Assembly: GCA_022496205.1 (NCBI GenBank)
Contig: WTXD01000008.1
Span: forward strand, 124,001 to 188,000
Length of the DNA: 64,000 nucleotides
Direction: 5' to 3'
Origin: Gloeopeniophorella convolvens
Lineage: Eukaryota > Basidiomycota > Agaricomycetes > Russulales
In this document: positions 7,524 to 28,569 of the stretch, in pieces
Layout of the letters: each line of letters opens with the position of its first letter
How positions within the stretch are numbered: position 1 is the stretch's first letter
Position numbers and translations under genes: made by a program
The notes under the pieces: model-generated
The model's database searches: none
Seen by the model: only the letters and a program-made list of their open reading frames with translations
Told to the model about the DNA's origin: nothing

Positions 7524-9158
7524 CTACTCTTCCTCCTCTTCGCTTTCTTCCTGCTCCTGCAAAAACTGGTGGTCGAGTGTCAGGTCGAGCATATCGTGAG
7601 AAGGAACCCGAGGTGGAGCGTACCTTTACAAGTGCCTCGGTGGCCTTGAGGAAGTGCTGGCGACCCTGGGGCTTCGAGCCCTTCTGGTACCAGTAGATGA
7701 TGGCCTGGTCAGACACGCAGTCCTTGTTGTACAGCACCTTGAGGATCTGCGGGAACGCCTTCATGATGCGGGTGTCCTCGTAACAATACACCTGCACGGC
7801 GTTGATGAGCGCAACCTCCGTCTTGGGGCCCGTGCAGAACGGCTCGATGATGGGCGCGAAGCGCTAGCGCAGGGTCAGCACCTGCGGGAATGGGGGAGAG
7901 GAGCCGGCGGGGCACGCACCGAGACCTCGCGCAGGGCGAGCCCCTCGATCTGATCCGGCCGCGCGCTCCAGTCGACCTGCGCTATGAGGCCCTGCCAGAG
8001 GCTCGAGACGAGCTCGGACTCGGGGAGCGGGCGCTCCTCGACGATCGCGCGCACCGCCGTAACGACCTGCGCCCTCCGTTAAAACAATGCGAGACCGGGC
8101 GCATACAAGGAGCGGGGACGCACATCCGCCGACTGATCCTCGCGATCGAGCGCCTCCTTGATGGACTTGCCGATCTCCTCCCTGATGAGCGCGTTCTGCT
8201 TGCGCGTCCACCAATCCGCGACTTGCGGGAGCCCCGCGCCGCGGAAGTGCGCGTCGAGGACGGGCGCCGTGCGCCGGTTCGGCGGGAAGAACGCGAGGAG
8301 GTCCTTGATGCCGCCCTTCTTGAGCGCGCCCGCGAGGTGTTCCATCGACAGCTCGGCAAGGTACGCGCGCAGGATTGCCGTGAGCACGTTCACCGCGATG
8401 TCTGCGCCGGCCCGGTGTCTGAGCAGTGGTAGCGGGAGCAGGCGGGGGCAGAATGAGCACGTACCATTTTTGACGAGGTGGTCCTTCGTCAGACTTTGGA
8501 GGCACGCTGCGTTGGCGAGGCCCTGGGCGATGAGGAGCCCGATGGCGACAGAGAACTTGTCCCGTTGCCCATCCTGCCACTTGTTCGCGTATTGGAGGAG
8601 CGTCGGGAGCGAGTTCTCCTCGAGAGGCTTCTGGAGATACTTGTATCTGGCATCGTCGATATGTGAATCGAGCGTTCTCGCAGAGGTAGCAGCAGGGCAA
8701 GGGCCGGGCGCACCTCCTGATAAGCTTGTTGAGGACCTCGACGAACTTCTTTATCTCTTCCACCGAAGCGGGATCCTTGATCTGGAAGAGCGAGAAGGGA
8801 GACGTGGGGCCGACCTCATCAAGGTAGGAGCCGCCCGGCTGGAGAAGGCCGCCGACAAAGAGGATGTCGAAGAGGGCATCTGAGTACTTGAGGAGCTCGA
8901 GGGTGGAGCCAGCCTGGATGAGTTTGTTCGCGACTGCGTCGTAATCGCCCGGGGGGGTGGCCTCGAGGTGCTTGTAGACCTGGTCTCTGAATACTGTGTG
9001 CGGCGGGGGGTCAGGGCGATGCAGCGGGAGGGCAATAGCCCTGGCAACGGGTGCGCACCTGTAGGCTCGTGTTTCGCGTGGGCCTTGACAGCGCCTTTCC
9101 TAGCTTTTATTCTTACGCCCTGGAGCGAAGGCTTTGGCACGGCTTGTTGCTGAGACAT
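7524..9158 (-). CDS. BZW/eIF5-mimic protein with W2 domain
   Basis: Cytoplasmic translation regulator of the BZW1/BZW2 (5MP, eIF5-mimic) family. These proteins carry an eIF5-type W2 domain and in animals compete with eIF5 for eIF2 and eIF3. The start MSQQQAVPKPSLQGVRIKAR matches the usual N-terminus. Later exons give LELLKYSDALFDILFVGGLL, QPGGSYLDEVGPTSPF, ANKWQDGQRDKFSVAIGLLI, a long helical middle, then the C-terminal W2 part: IMKAFPQILKVLYNKDCVSD, QAIIYWYQKGSKPQGRQHFL and KATEALVKFLQEQEESEEEEE. The acidic W2 tail (AA-box 2 type) is intact and ends at TAG 7524-7526. An in-frame ATG two codons upstream (9164) is less likely. The gene is divergent from the small gene at 9341, with only 182 bp between start codons. 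Confidence 0.9.
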
Positions 9159-20997: not shown

Positions 20998-23393
20998 ATG
21001 AGCGACTCCACTAGCTCCTCTCCATCCCTTCCTTCGTCTACCCCACCGACCTCTGTGCCATCACCGGCAATCGCAACATTGAGTTTGTCAGATGTAAAAG
21101 AAGTTACAGACCAGGACAGGGAGAAGGCCGCACGGCTCAAGGCCGACGCAAACAAGGCCTTTACTAGTATGTCGTGCAAACACGACTACGCTGGTTTCTG
21201 TGCTCATCTCGGCCCCTTGACCAGGCCACGATTTTCCGCGTGCTGCTCAGCTATACTCCGACGCGATCGAGCTTAATCCGCTCGATGCGACTCTCTTCTG
21301 CAATCGCGCATATACCCGCATCAAACTCGAGGAGCATGGATACGCGTTACACGACGCAGGTAATTCTCCGCGCTGTCCTATCTTGCAGACAGATATAGAC
21401 GTCCTGCCGCAGCACGAGCGATAGAGATCAACCCTAAGTATGCCAAAGCGTACTACCGGTGCGTACCCTCTGCCGCGGTCTGTCCGTCATACACAACTAA
21501 TGATGTCGTTACGATGCCTCAGTCGCGCAATGTGTCATATACAGATACTCAAGCCGCAGCAGGCTATTGCTGATCTAAAGAGGGTGCTCGCGCTCGAGCC
21601 GCAAAACGCGCAGATCCGAAAAGAGCTTGAGTCGACGCAGAAACTTGTGCGGAGGATCGAGTTCGAGAAGGCTATTGAGATGGAAGAAGAGAAGAGTGCC
21701 GTCGAAAGGTGTCTTGAGATCATTGCCGAGGGTATGTCGGTTCACTTTTCTTATCGTAACCCGAGCTCACACCTACGTAAGGCGCTTGCGAGGTGGAGAA
21801 AGCGTACGCAGGTCCTAAGCTTGAGAAAACGGAAGATGGGAAGTACAAGATCACTCTAGAATTCCTACGATCTATGATCCAATGGTTTAAAGACGGGAAG
21901 AGTCTTCCTCGCCGATATGCATGGGAAATCGTTCTCGGAGCACATGACCACTTCGTGAAGGAGCAGAGTCTCGTGGACGTAAAACTGGACGAAGGCGTTA
22001 CGATCGACGTTATTGGGGACGTACACGGTAACACCTTTATTCCTCATCTCCAACAGTCTAATATTTATACATGCCCAGGACAATTCTACGACGTCTTGCA
22101 TTTATTATCACTGACTGGGGAGCCATCAGAGAAGCATTTCCTACTTATGAACGGTGACCTCGTCGACCGCGGTTCGTGGTCGATTGAGGTTATCCTGACA
22201 GCCTTTGCTTTCAAGTGTGAGCAGGGATTGGATTCGTTCCCGTGTACACATCTCACCCCTGGATAATTCCTTTTTAGGGTTATACCCCAGTAACATGTTC
22301 ATCAATCGCGGAAATCATGAAGCGAAGGAGATGAATCGGACGTATGGTTTCGAAGGCGAGGCGAAACATAAGCATGGCGAACAATCTTACAAGGTGTGCT
22401 CTGTTCGCAAGTGTCATCCAATGCGCCCTGACTTCGCCTCTCCAAGTTGTTTGCTCACGTCTTCACGACGAGTGCGTGTCGTAGCATGACGGTTCATTTG
22501 CATGGCTTCCTCTTACGAGAAATACAGTGCCCCTTGCCACCCTTATCAGCGCAACCCAGCCTCCGGCAACCACAAAGGGTGCAATCCTCTCACCAGAGGG
22601 CCTCAAGAGATACTTTGTCACCCATGGTGGTCTTTTCAGCAAGGACGGCGTAACTCTCGACGAGATCCGCGCAATTAACCGAATCGGCCGCCAACCAGGA
22701 ACTGAGGGTTTGATGTGTAAGTTTTTGTCTAGCCTCATAGTTAACGTAGTATCACTCACTCGCCTTTGTAGGTGAGGTTCGTTTTCAGGCTCCATCTGGC
22801 GACGGAGGCCGAACGCTGAGCGGAATTCCAGCTTCTTTGGACAGATCCACAAGAGTTACCTGGACGGGGACCTAGCAAACGCGTGGGTCTAGTCGATCAG
22901 GTGGCTCGTGGTCTCTGACGAATACATTCCGATTAGGGTGTTGGCATTGCGTTTGGCCCCGACGTGACTCGGCGGTGGTGCGAGTTGAACGGTGTGACTG
23001 GTATCATGCGTAGTCATGAGGTGCGGCAAGGTACGAAGACAAGTAGACGACCTCTTATCCATTCGCTAATGATAATTCCGTCTAGATGGTTATGCCATCG
23101 AGCACGATGGTCTATGCACAACGGTATTGTCGCTGGCCTTCAACATAAGGGATTTGCTCACCGTACCCACAGGTCTTCTCCGCGCCGAACTATGTTGACC
23201 AAGGAGGCAACAAGGGTGCCTTTGTGCGTCTTCGAATTTTTCGGCGCGCTGAAGGTCATCTCATCGCCTTATCCGATAGATCCGCATAGATGCTAAGGGC
23301 ACGCAGGAGTATGTGCAGTTCGAGGCGCAGCCCCACCCGAATATTCGTCCTATGGCGTATCAGACAGGAGGCTTAGCGAACCTGATGATGTAG
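20998..23393 (+). CDS. PPT1: Serine/threonine protein phosphatase 5 with TPR domain
   Basis: Ortholog of PP5/Ppt1, a phosphatase that docks to Hsp90 through its TPR domain. After a Ser/Pro-rich leader, the TPR repeats read [67 protein letters not shown] and [18 protein letters not shown]. The catalytic domain keeps all metal and phosphate motifs: [53 protein letters not shown] and VFSAPNYVD. It ends [11 protein letters not shown] at 23391. More than a dozen short exons are needed. One is only 5 nt (22772-22776) and is required to read [12 protein letters not shown]. No disabling change was found, so the enzyme should be active. Protein length is about 540 residues, normal for the family. Confidence 0.95.
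22772..22776 (+). other. Predicted 5-nt micro-exon in PP5
   Basis: The exon GTGAG lies between introns 22717-22771 (GTAAG...TAG) and 22777-22831 (GTTCG...CCAG). Including it reads Met-Cys-Glu-Leu-Leu-Trp, which is the PP5 consensus. Skipping it breaks the frame. Automated gene callers will usually miss it. Confidence 0.8.
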
Positions 23394-24137
23394 AGCAAAA
23401 TATTGCGATCCGCGATCCAGGCGCCCGGGTCTGTAAGTTACATGCGGTCCAGTAACCATACGACGTTCGCCTTCAGCAGATGATCTAAGTACGTTGCATA
23501 ACTCAGACACCTGCGTTATAGCGTTACTGGCGGTCTCCCGGTTCAGATGACGGTATTGTTGCGAATCTACGTCGAAAGATTAAGTGGTTATCAGTGCTGG
23601 TGCCCATGGCGTCCAGCCGATCGTCGTCCGATCATGATAGGACCAAGAGACAGCCTCTCGGGAAGCCTCGCCCCACGTGATGAAGGAAAAATCTTGCCCA
23701 ACCTGCCCCCCGGCACACATACGGGGCCCGTGTCAAGTCATGCTCATAACGTCCTTAGGCTTCACAACCAACACAGCATCACTGGTGAACTTAGCACCAG
23801 CTTGGCATGGTCGGTAGGTAACGGCACAAGCCCTGCAGCATCGGAGCGAAAATCCGGGCGATCTTGGGCGATCCTGGGCAGTCGGCGTCGGCTGCAACGA
23901 CATCGAACCCCGATCAGATATTCATCCTTATGGAATTACCTTTCGAATGAAACGTCTTCATGGGACCAAGAGAGACCACGATGCATGCGCACAATATGTG
24001 GGGCTTGTATAAAACCTGACGATGGGCGGTCCTGATTCTCTAGCTGTGCTCACCCTTCGTTCTCTATCCTTTGTTACTTCTTTGCCCTCGTTCTTTGCCC
24101 ACGCATCTCCCACGAACTCCACATCTTATCATTCACG
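23394..24137. other. Upstream region of the peptide precursor gene
   Basis: About 740 bp without a gene. The last 130 bp hold a good TATA box and a pyrimidine-rich leader before the ATG at 24138. The remainder has no recognised structure. Confidence 0.55.
24008..24014 (+). promoter_or_regulatory. TATA box of the peptide precursor gene
   Basis: TATAAAA lies 124 bp upstream of the ATG at 24138. Few genes in this window have such a perfect box, so the gene may be strongly or inducibly transcribed. The assignment is by sequence and distance only. Confidence 0.6.
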
Positions 24138-25317
24138 ATGCGTCCCACTACTGCTGTTCTCACTCTTGCTCTCGCTCTCGCTCTCAGCGCGTCGGCTGTG
24201 CCCATCAGAGTCCCTACCACGTATGCCCCCCCTCTTTAACCCCTGGTGTGACGAAGTTAGCTGACCTACTGGTCCCCTCTTGTAGTATCGGAACTGCTTG
24301 CACACCAGTCGCGTTTGGGGATGGTACAATCTGCGTTCCTTTCTCTGGTCTTGCTCAACGTTCCGGGGCTGCATTGAACCGCTTCAACGCGTACGTTTAC
24401 CGCACGTGAAACAATCTTGCTTTAGTTGCTCATTCTCTCTAGGTGGGACGGGGCCGATTTCTCTGAGAGCGATCTTACAAGGTAAGTTCCTGATACACCA
24501 CGCTCGGTACTCGTTGACCCCTCTTGTGTAGGCGTAAGTTCGTAGATGACTTGAAGGCAATTCTCGGCACCTTCTTCGGCGCTGTGGCTAAGTAGGTGCC
24601 GCACCTTTATCTCACCCTTCGGAGACTGACCCGTGCGTGAAGGCGCGATCTTCCTGAGAATGACCTTGCAAGGTAGGTTTCTGACACATCACGCTCAGCA
24701 CCCGCTGACCCCTCTCGTGCAGGCGTAAGTTTGTAGATGACCTGAAGGCGATTCTCGGTACCTTCTTCGGCGCTGTGGCCAAGTAGGCGCCGCACCTTTA
24801 TCGCACCCTTCGGACGCTGACCCGTGCGTGAAGGCGCGACCTTCCTGAGAATGTTCTTGCAAGGTAGGGTTCTGATACACCGCGCTCGACACTCGCTGAC
24901 CCCTCTCGTGCAGGCGCAAGTTCGTGGATGACTTGAAGGCGATTCTCGGCACCTTCTTTGGCGCTGTGGCCAGGTAGGCACTGCACCTTGATCGTGCTCT
25001 TCAGGCGCTGATTCGCGCATGAAGGCGCGATTCCTCTGAGGATGACCTTGCAGCGCTTAGCACTTTGTTCGGTATTGCCAAGTAAGTCACCACCTCACCA
25101 ATGTACCGCACGGAAGCTCACGGCACTCATTCAGGCGTAGCGAGTTCGCTAAGCGTAACAAATTCACTGATGACCTTGAGTTATTTTTCGCCAATCTGGT
25201 TACCAAGTGCGTTATCCAGCTCCGCCGCGACCCTATTCGTCAATGCTGACCTATTCATTCAGGCGTGAAGAGTTGGACGGGGCGTTGGCCCGCCGGTCGA
25301 TCAACGAGCTCGACTAA
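24138..25317 (+). CDS. Secreted precursor with repeated peptides between dibasic (Kex2-type) sites
   Basis: No known family recognised. Eleven exons add to 651 nt (216 residues plus TAA): 24138-24220, 24286-24390, 24443-24481, 24532-24591, 24643-24672, 24723-24782, 24834-24863, 24914-24973, 25025-25081, 25135-25206, 25263-25317. A signal peptide (MRPTTAVLTLALALALSASA) is followed by a Cys-pair segment (ACTPVAFGDGTIC), then peptides separated by RR or KR. KFVDDLKAILGTFFGAVA occurs three times, separated by DLPENDLA and DLPENVLA. Related copies DSSEDDLAALSTLFGIA and NKFTDDLELFFANLVT come next, and short EELDGALA and SINELD close the protein. Hydrophobic residues fall every 3-4 positions, so the peptides should form amphipathic helices; the net charge is near zero. 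Introns after exon 3 split the dibasic AGG/AAG codon in phase 2. The predicted route is secretion, Kex2 cleavage and release of several peptides; function is unknown. Confidence 0.85.
24452..25024 (+). repeat. Three tandem 191-bp exon/intron repeats
   Basis: The block has a period of exactly 191 bp: exon starts 24532, 24723 and 24914 are 191 apart, as are 24643, 24834 and 25025. Each unit holds a 30-nt exon (the first copy is the diverged end of exon 3), an intron, a 60-nt exon and another intron. Introns are nearly as similar as exons, which points to recent unequal crossing-over or replication slippage. The unit codes for one spacer plus one peptide. Confidence 0.9.

Positions 25318-26906: not shown

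Positions 26907-28569
<1,663 letters not shown>

Follow-up and report, generated by a model that had tools for sequence, protein, structure and literature searches.

We found that the genome of Gloeopeniophorella convolvens, a member of the Russulales, holds a gene for a precursor that is likely secreted and that Kex2 is predicted to cut at KR and RR pairs, giving three identical 18-residue peptides, two variants and short spacers, and that eight of the ten introns of this gene lie in the codons of the dibasic pairs. What is new is the layout, in which splice junctions coincide with predicted protease sites in symmetrical 2-2 exons. The gene lies in the window, by which we mean the whole 64,000-nt stretch of DNA that was analysed (G000:C383:124001-188000, in an assembly of 36.7 Mb and 404 contigs). 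We rebuilt it from the sequence as 11 exons on the + strand, with its ATG at 24138 and its TAA ending at 25317, and the predicted spliced product is 216 aa long. All ten introns run from GT to AG, measure 50-65 nt each and carry a YTNAY branch-site-like motif 12-40 nt upstream of their 3' end. A public protein of G. convolvens, BC834DRAFT_646928, is identical to the 216-aa product over its full length. The model is thus in accord with an independent gene call, which is itself a prediction. The features of the gene, in positions of the window, are as follows; introns of classes A and B belong to a duplicated unit described below.

24008..24014, + strand: TATA-box-like TATAAAA, 130 nt upstream of the ATG, its position being no more than suggestive
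24138..24220, + strand: exon 1 of the rebuilt model, 83 nt
24138..24197, + strand: signal-peptide-like segment, residues 1-20, MRPTTAVLTLALALALSASA, judged by eye
24286..24390, + strand: exon 2, 105 nt, pro-region carrying two cysteines
24443..24481, + strand: exon 3, 39 nt, first spacer, its 3' end being the split AGG of RR
24463..25052, + strand: three tandem units, start-to-start 191 and 191 bp, gapless, 88% and 81% identical to the first
24482..24531, + strand: intron 3, class A, 50 nt, splitting the AGG of R76-R77
24532..24591, + strand: exon 4, 60 nt, peptide KFVDDLKAILGTFFGAVA at 24536-24589
24592..24642, + strand: intron 4, class B, 51 nt, splitting the AAG of KR
24643..24672, + strand: exon 5, 30 nt, spacer DLPENDLA
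24673..24722, + strand: intron 5, class A, splitting the AGG of RR
24723..24782, + strand: exon 6, 60 nt, peptide KFVDDLKAILGTFFGAVA at 24727-24780
24783..24833, + strand: intron 6, class B, splitting the AAG of KR
24834..24863, + strand: exon 7, 30 nt, spacer DLPENVLA
24864..24913, + strand: intron 7, class A, splitting the AGG of RR
24914..24973, + strand: exon 8, 60 nt, peptide KFVDDLKAILGTFFGAVA at 24918-24971
24974..25024, + strand: intron 8, class B, splitting the AGG of RR
25025..25081, + strand: exon 9, 57 nt, DSSEDDLAALSTLFGIA at 25029-25079
25082..25134, + strand: intron 9, 53 nt, splitting the AAG of KR
25135..25206, + strand: exon 10, 72 nt, SEFA, an unsplit KR and NKFTDDLELFFANLVT at 25157-25204
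25207..25262, + strand: intron 10, 56 nt, splitting the AAG of KR
25263..25317, + strand: exon 11, 55 nt, EELDGALA, an unsplit RR, SINELD and the stop

From its N-terminus, the predicted product has a signal-like segment, followed by a pro-region that contains two cysteines, a spacer and then segments bounded by RR or KR. After the first spacer the order is RR, KFVDDLKAILGTFFGAVA, KR, DLPENDLA, RR, KFVDDLKAILGTFFGAVA, KR, DLPENVLA, RR, KFVDDLKAILGTFFGAVA, RR, DSSEDDLAALSTLFGIA, KR, SEFA, KR, NKFTDDLELFFANLVT, KR, EELDGALA, RR, SINELD. There are ten distinct dibasic sites, all of them KR or RR at segment borders, and, by eye, MRPTTAVLTLALALALSASA-VP fits the n, h and c regions of a secretion signal. 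The first-pass annotation had proposed a Kex2-type precursor with three identical peptides; the signal-peptide-like N-terminus and the repeats flanked by KR or RR point to such a precursor, and the three 18-mers, in exons 4, 6 and 8, match exactly in the rebuilt protein. Since the RR that precedes the 18-mer is itself followed by a K, the mature peptide may begin with either K or F. The same annotation had called the peptides helical and amphipathic, which held in part. When we ran AlphaFold2 on the single precursor sequence, it placed a helix over residues 4-16 and helices over the peptide segments, all at low confidence (mean pLDDT 43.4). On the Eisenberg scale at 100 degrees, the helical moment of the 18-mer is 0.40 as compared to 0.20 on average for its shuffles (P = 0.03), that of NKFTDDLELFFANLVT is 0.39 (P = 0.07 against shuffles) and that of DSSEDDLAALSTLFGIA is 0.18 (P = 0.45 against shuffles); amphipathic character is thus weakly present in the 18-mer, borderline in the first variant and not found in the second. 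The net charges of the three are 0, –2 and –4, respectively. As linear peptides they have computed [M+H]+ masses of 1912.058 (KFVDDLKAILGTFFGAVA, which may or may not keep its N-terminal K), 1886.954 (NKFTDDLELFFANLVT) and 1724.823 (DSSEDDLAALSTLFGIA). For the precursor, NCBIfam gave no match and a sequence search of the PDB gave nothing at E <= 1. Two Pfam matches on the precursor, SAF (24.1 bits, cut-off 21) and TrbI_Ftype (20 bits, below its cut-off of 27.4), were set aside as repeat noise, as neither had an individually significant stretch.

All ten introns are in phase 2, so the nine internal exons are all multiples of three and symmetrical 2-2. Introns 3-10 each fall after the second base of the AAG or AGG that opens a dibasic pair, leaving two of the ten dibasic sites unsplit, SEFA-KR (AAG CGT, exon 10) and LA-RR (CGC CGG, exon 11). 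It had been claimed that the introns from exon 3 on are in phase 2 and split the AGG or AAG codon of a dibasic pair; the splitting is borne out for introns 3-10, and the phase extends to every intron of the gene. The further claim that each exon is one peptide or spacer cassette needs correcting for exons 9-11, where the content is mixed: exon 9 is a spacer-like start fused to a variant peptide, exon 10 is SEFA plus KR plus a peptide, and exon 11 holds two pieces.

To compare the intron positions with the sites open to them, we counted AR/G sites (the slash marks the intron position) in the coding sequence and found 23, of which nine lie in a codon that opens a dibasic pair. Introns split eight of these nine and none of the other 14, and introns 1 and 2 lie elsewhere. 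With junctions allowed at AR/G sites only and reduced to four independent types (one for each duplicated class, one for intron 9 and one for intron 10), the probability that introns and dibasic sites would coincide to this extent by chance is P = 0.014; when all eight junctions are taken as independent, P = 1.8e-5. The value of 0.014 under the conservative null indicates that AR/G preference together with duplication explains part of the pattern. It is nearly an even bet, falling somewhat short of one, that the intron positions are without selective meaning, AAG or AGG followed by CGN simply offering AR/G sites and duplication having multiplied two chance introns. That account fits the modest P value just given and the AAG CGT site, which is still unsplit, and it also covers the stops that follow intron retention, since these follow from phase 2 and common donor sequences; the eight split sites out of nine, as compared to none out of 14, speak against it.

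When any one of introns 3-9 is retained, a stop comes straight after the first basic residue (R-stop or K-stop), and when intron 10 is retained, 13 further residues precede the stop. Phase 2 and a GTRAG donor are enough to yield such a stop, so the stops are not evidence of design. A precursor truncated by intron retention would still have its last segment intact, followed by a single basic residue, and exon skipping should preserve the frame, as well as the dibasic pairs when it takes place between split sites. As a tentative reading, which we hold to be possible rather than probable, AR/G-CGN is an intron site and a Kex2 site at once, and the gene is an error-tolerant peptide-cassette array in which splicing could set the peptide mix. 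If this is true, skipping would drop and duplication would add whole peptides, retention of introns 3-9 would end translation at a cleavage site, and almost any splicing outcome would still yield correct peptides.

In the mechanism that we propose, AAG or AGG followed by CGN would encode KR or RR while reading as an AR/G intron site, so that introns may have settled in the cleavage sites and given rise to symmetrical 2-2 exons, and a two-exon unit would then have been duplicated through unequal crossing-over. An internal exon added or skipped from exon 3 onward would keep the frame, and within exons 4-9 the dibasic sites would be rebuilt. The suggestion that peptides can be added in this gene without loss agrees with the layout, which permits frame-preserving insertion, and 191-bp units were duplicated in fact. 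Exon borders at protease sites would offer precursors a concrete route to gain or lose peptides without damage to frame or processing, and alternative splicing could tune the peptide mix via such borders. If independent genes for precursors of this kind share the coincidence, it would tie AR/G intron gain to peptide evolution and provide gene finders with a strong signature of peptide precursors that have so far been hidden.

To search for similar arrangements, we used a chain detector that requires AR/GTNNG, YTNAY and AG/G followed by CG, AAR or AGR, with exons that are open, in frame and 15-150 nt long. It found a single chain in 258 kb of the contig, made up of the 8 split-dibasic introns, and the other 24 candidates were solitary. 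Neither the reversed sequence, with 17 candidates, nor four Markov random copies, with 68, gave a chain of two or more. A loose single-intron pattern applied to the whole genome gave 90+79 matches as compared to 76+72 in the control, and, being too near the control, it was not used.

The duplication is visible as 191-bp direct repeats that start at 24463, 24654 and 24845, the first of them inside exon 3, and that reach into exon 9; each unit is made of a spacer exon, a class A intron (50 nt), a peptide exon and a class B intron (51 nt). Exon 3 resembles exon 5 (score 28, shuffle mean 11, z 6.9). In shuffle tests, exon 9 opens like a further spacer, the fourth (z 10.4 in the comparison with exon 5), and the remainder of exon 9 resembles the 18-mer (z 3.2 and uncorrected P 0.012 in the comparison with exon 4). 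Exon 10 shows weak similarity to exon 8 (P 0.05), exon 6 (P 0.21) and exon 9 (P 0.03), again uncorrected. Spacer and peptide exons were not significantly similar to one another in uncorrected shuffle tests (P 0.12 and 0.27), and seven comparisons between the intron classes were marginal or not significant (P 0.04 to 0.82, uncorrected). Introns 9 and 10 have no clear similarity to class A or B, which fits separate insertion and deep divergence equally. All three class B introns (24592-24642, 24783-24833 and 24974-25024) end in AAG, not CAG or TAG, a shared end that persists despite 16 differences in 51 positions between introns 4 and 8.

The three 60-nt peptide exons vary at nine positions, of which seven are in the 18-mer, one is in the Arg codon just upstream and one is in the KR pair, where K becomes R and the dibasic site is kept. 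All seven variable sites within the 54 nt of the 18-mer are silent, as is the change in the preceding Arg codon; the probability of seven silent changes out of seven is 4e-5 to 4e-4 (transition/transversion weights 1-10; three copies, one genome). The two 30-nt spacers have 3 differences, two of which replace D by V, and the contrast between 18-mer and spacer is not significant when taken alone (Fisher P 0.07). Among themselves, the class A introns show 7-10 differences in 50 positions and the class B introns 4-16 in 51. Sequence exchange between tandem copies is conceivable, and recent gene conversion might keep them identical with no selection; we regard this as improbable, given that seven silent sites vary in the 18-mer and flanking introns are up to 16/51 different, yet the peptide is identical. 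The all-silent changes of the 18-mer and the drifting introns argue instead for purifying selection on the 18-mer, which the small sample (three copies from one genome) suggests as the natural reading. Purifying selection, in turn, suggests that the 18-mer is the product that matters.

By architecture the precursor is a KEX2-processed repeat protein (KEP), with secretion and peptide release predicted. This class is described in passages of Le Marquer 2019 (PMC6339444), Umemura 2020 (PMC7329392) and Vogt 2022 (PMC9769878), and KEPs are presented there as widespread and highly diverse in fungi, with function mostly unassigned (PMC7329392, PMC9769878). Orphan KEPs are common, with 2560 of 7878 standing alone in the counts that we draw from PMC7329392, which lists 1680 basidiomycete KEPs. 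Like Agaricomycetes KEPs, the G. convolvens precursor has an N-terminal hydrophobic signal-like segment, KR/RR-bounded repeats, small size and orphan status. Unlike in the KEP descriptions, most exons of the G. convolvens gene from exon 3 on are cassettes cut at dibasic codons. In the main texts of PMC6339444, PMC7329392 and PMC9769878, the strings 'exon' and 'splic' do not occur and 'intron' occurs once, in a method, and the literature titles and abstract openings that we searched name no fungal exon-cassette or split-dibasic precursor. In animals, the caerulein and magainin genes of Xenopus laevis have tandem-repeated peptide exons according to a passage of PMC3731216, and the G. convolvens gene is like them in its tandem peptide exons; it is unlike them in that those genes are animal and their peptides unrelated. 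Basidiomycete KEPs of the alpha-pheromone-like type, which carry an STE13 signature, also have Kex2-type repeats; in contrast to these, none of the segments of the G. convolvens precursor begins with XA or XP after a dibasic site (the starts are KF, DL, DS, SE, NK, EE and SI).

Processing of the precursor would begin with signal peptidase removing the first ~20 residues. Kex2 from the one kexin-like gene that we found would then cut after KR and RR in the Golgi, a Kex1-type carboxypeptidase would trim the basic residues, and linear unmodified peptides would be released. The kexin-like gene is at C190:96460-97854 on the + strand, where Peptidase_S8 and P-domain matches lie 210 nt apart, and these two profile matches indicate that the organism has a kexin. 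Stops inside both matches are what is expected of introns. The P-domain match is the single one in the genome; the six-frame exon-by-exon search may miss others. By comparison, C. cinerea is reported in PMC9769878 to have three kex2 genes, and detected KEP peptides of C. cinerea and edible mushrooms are described there as linear and little modified.

Dikaritin (ustiloxin-type) precursors share the secretory-like, repeated, dibasic layout, and ribosomal-peptide precursors had been named among those that fungi cut with Kex2. Tyr is expected in the core peptide of a dikaritin. We found no Tyr among the 216 residues of the G. convolvens precursor, and although the genome holds UstYa (DUF3328) genes, with at least 19 matches, none of the matches found is on contig C383; a dikaritin-type cyclic ribosomal peptide precursor is therefore very improbable. 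Several UstYa matches pair up as neighbours (for instance on C45, C7, C18, C101 and C268), which may mark ribosomal-peptide clusters of another kind. Around the precursor gene, we scanned 29 other open frames with Pfam (E <= 0.01 or <= 1e-4), out of 93 of at least 150 aa in the window. Three matches were clear:

7864-9099, minus strand: 5MP1/2 HEAT protein, clear Pfam match
21781-22266: PPP5-type phosphatase, clear Pfam match
27408-28184, minus strand: polyubiquitin, three ubiquitin stretches by Pfam

Weaker matches nearby were to a fungal transcription-factor domain, Oxidored_FMN and Yae1_N, and a match to Yippee fell below its cut-off. No peptide-modifying cluster is apparent among the 29 scanned frames, the remaining ones being matchless.

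In protein searches with the whole precursor and two of its regions (E <= 10), the precursor itself was the sole return; these searches required shared 5-residue words and 0.55-1.75 times the query length, the whole-protein query used at most 100 words, and one region query scored the best 7994 word-sharing candidates. Conservation in relatives, which had been set beforehand as a test of the interpretation, was thus not seen within this scope, and one species is all in which we have observed the layout. The empty search fits a gene that may be young or fast-evolving. Protein and DNA searches for paralogues in the organism's own genome returned the precursor locus only, the DNA search giving a single match for it. 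An AADW-type mushroom KEP pattern had 6 matches in the genome as compared to 3 in the control, and none of the 6 loci has a split-dibasic chain of two or more. The cores of KEP 497993 had no match in the genome, in a search run without a positive control.

As for the role, we propose with low certainty an extracellular peptide with an action on other organisms or at the surface of cells, and not in axenic growth. According to PMC9769878, no phenotype was apparent in axenic culture for six C. cinerea kep knock-outs. One candidate function, which we would call doubtful, is that of repellent-like surface peptides, in which helical peptides would self-assemble on hyphae and alter surface hydrophobicity as Rep1 of Ustilago maydis reportedly does. 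Passages of PMC6339444 and PMC9769878 describe Rep1 as a basidiomycete Kex2-type repeat precursor of amphipathic peptides, and the G. convolvens precursor is alike in its repeats and in its 18-mer, which is hydrophobic, net-neutral and has the helical moment given above. The likeness is one of description, and it is weakened by length, as the Rep1 peptides have 37 residues (a figure from a passage of PMC6339444) and those of G. convolvens have 16-18, and by the one variant that is non-amphipathic. A membrane-active or antimicrobial peptide released against competitors is to our minds just as doubtful a candidate. The hydrophobic, helix-prone 18-mer (the helix being of low confidence) would suit it, and among the linear KEP peptides mentioned in PMC9769878 is a cytolytic one of a pathogenic yeast; however, the net charges of the G. 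convolvens peptides are unlike those of cationic antimicrobial peptides, and the synthetic C. cinerea KEP peptides tested in PMC9769878 had no antibacterial activity. The readings on surface action, membrane activity and gene conversion ask different questions from the one on chance introns, and their probabilities need not sum to one.

Two minor observations concern the surroundings and the assembly. The polyubiquitin gene, which lies some 2 kb away from the precursor gene, likewise encodes a polyprotein of tandem repeats, a coincidence as far as we can see. The contig pairs C50/C279 and C52/C366 gave matches of identical score, which suggests that the assembly holds redundant haplotype contigs.
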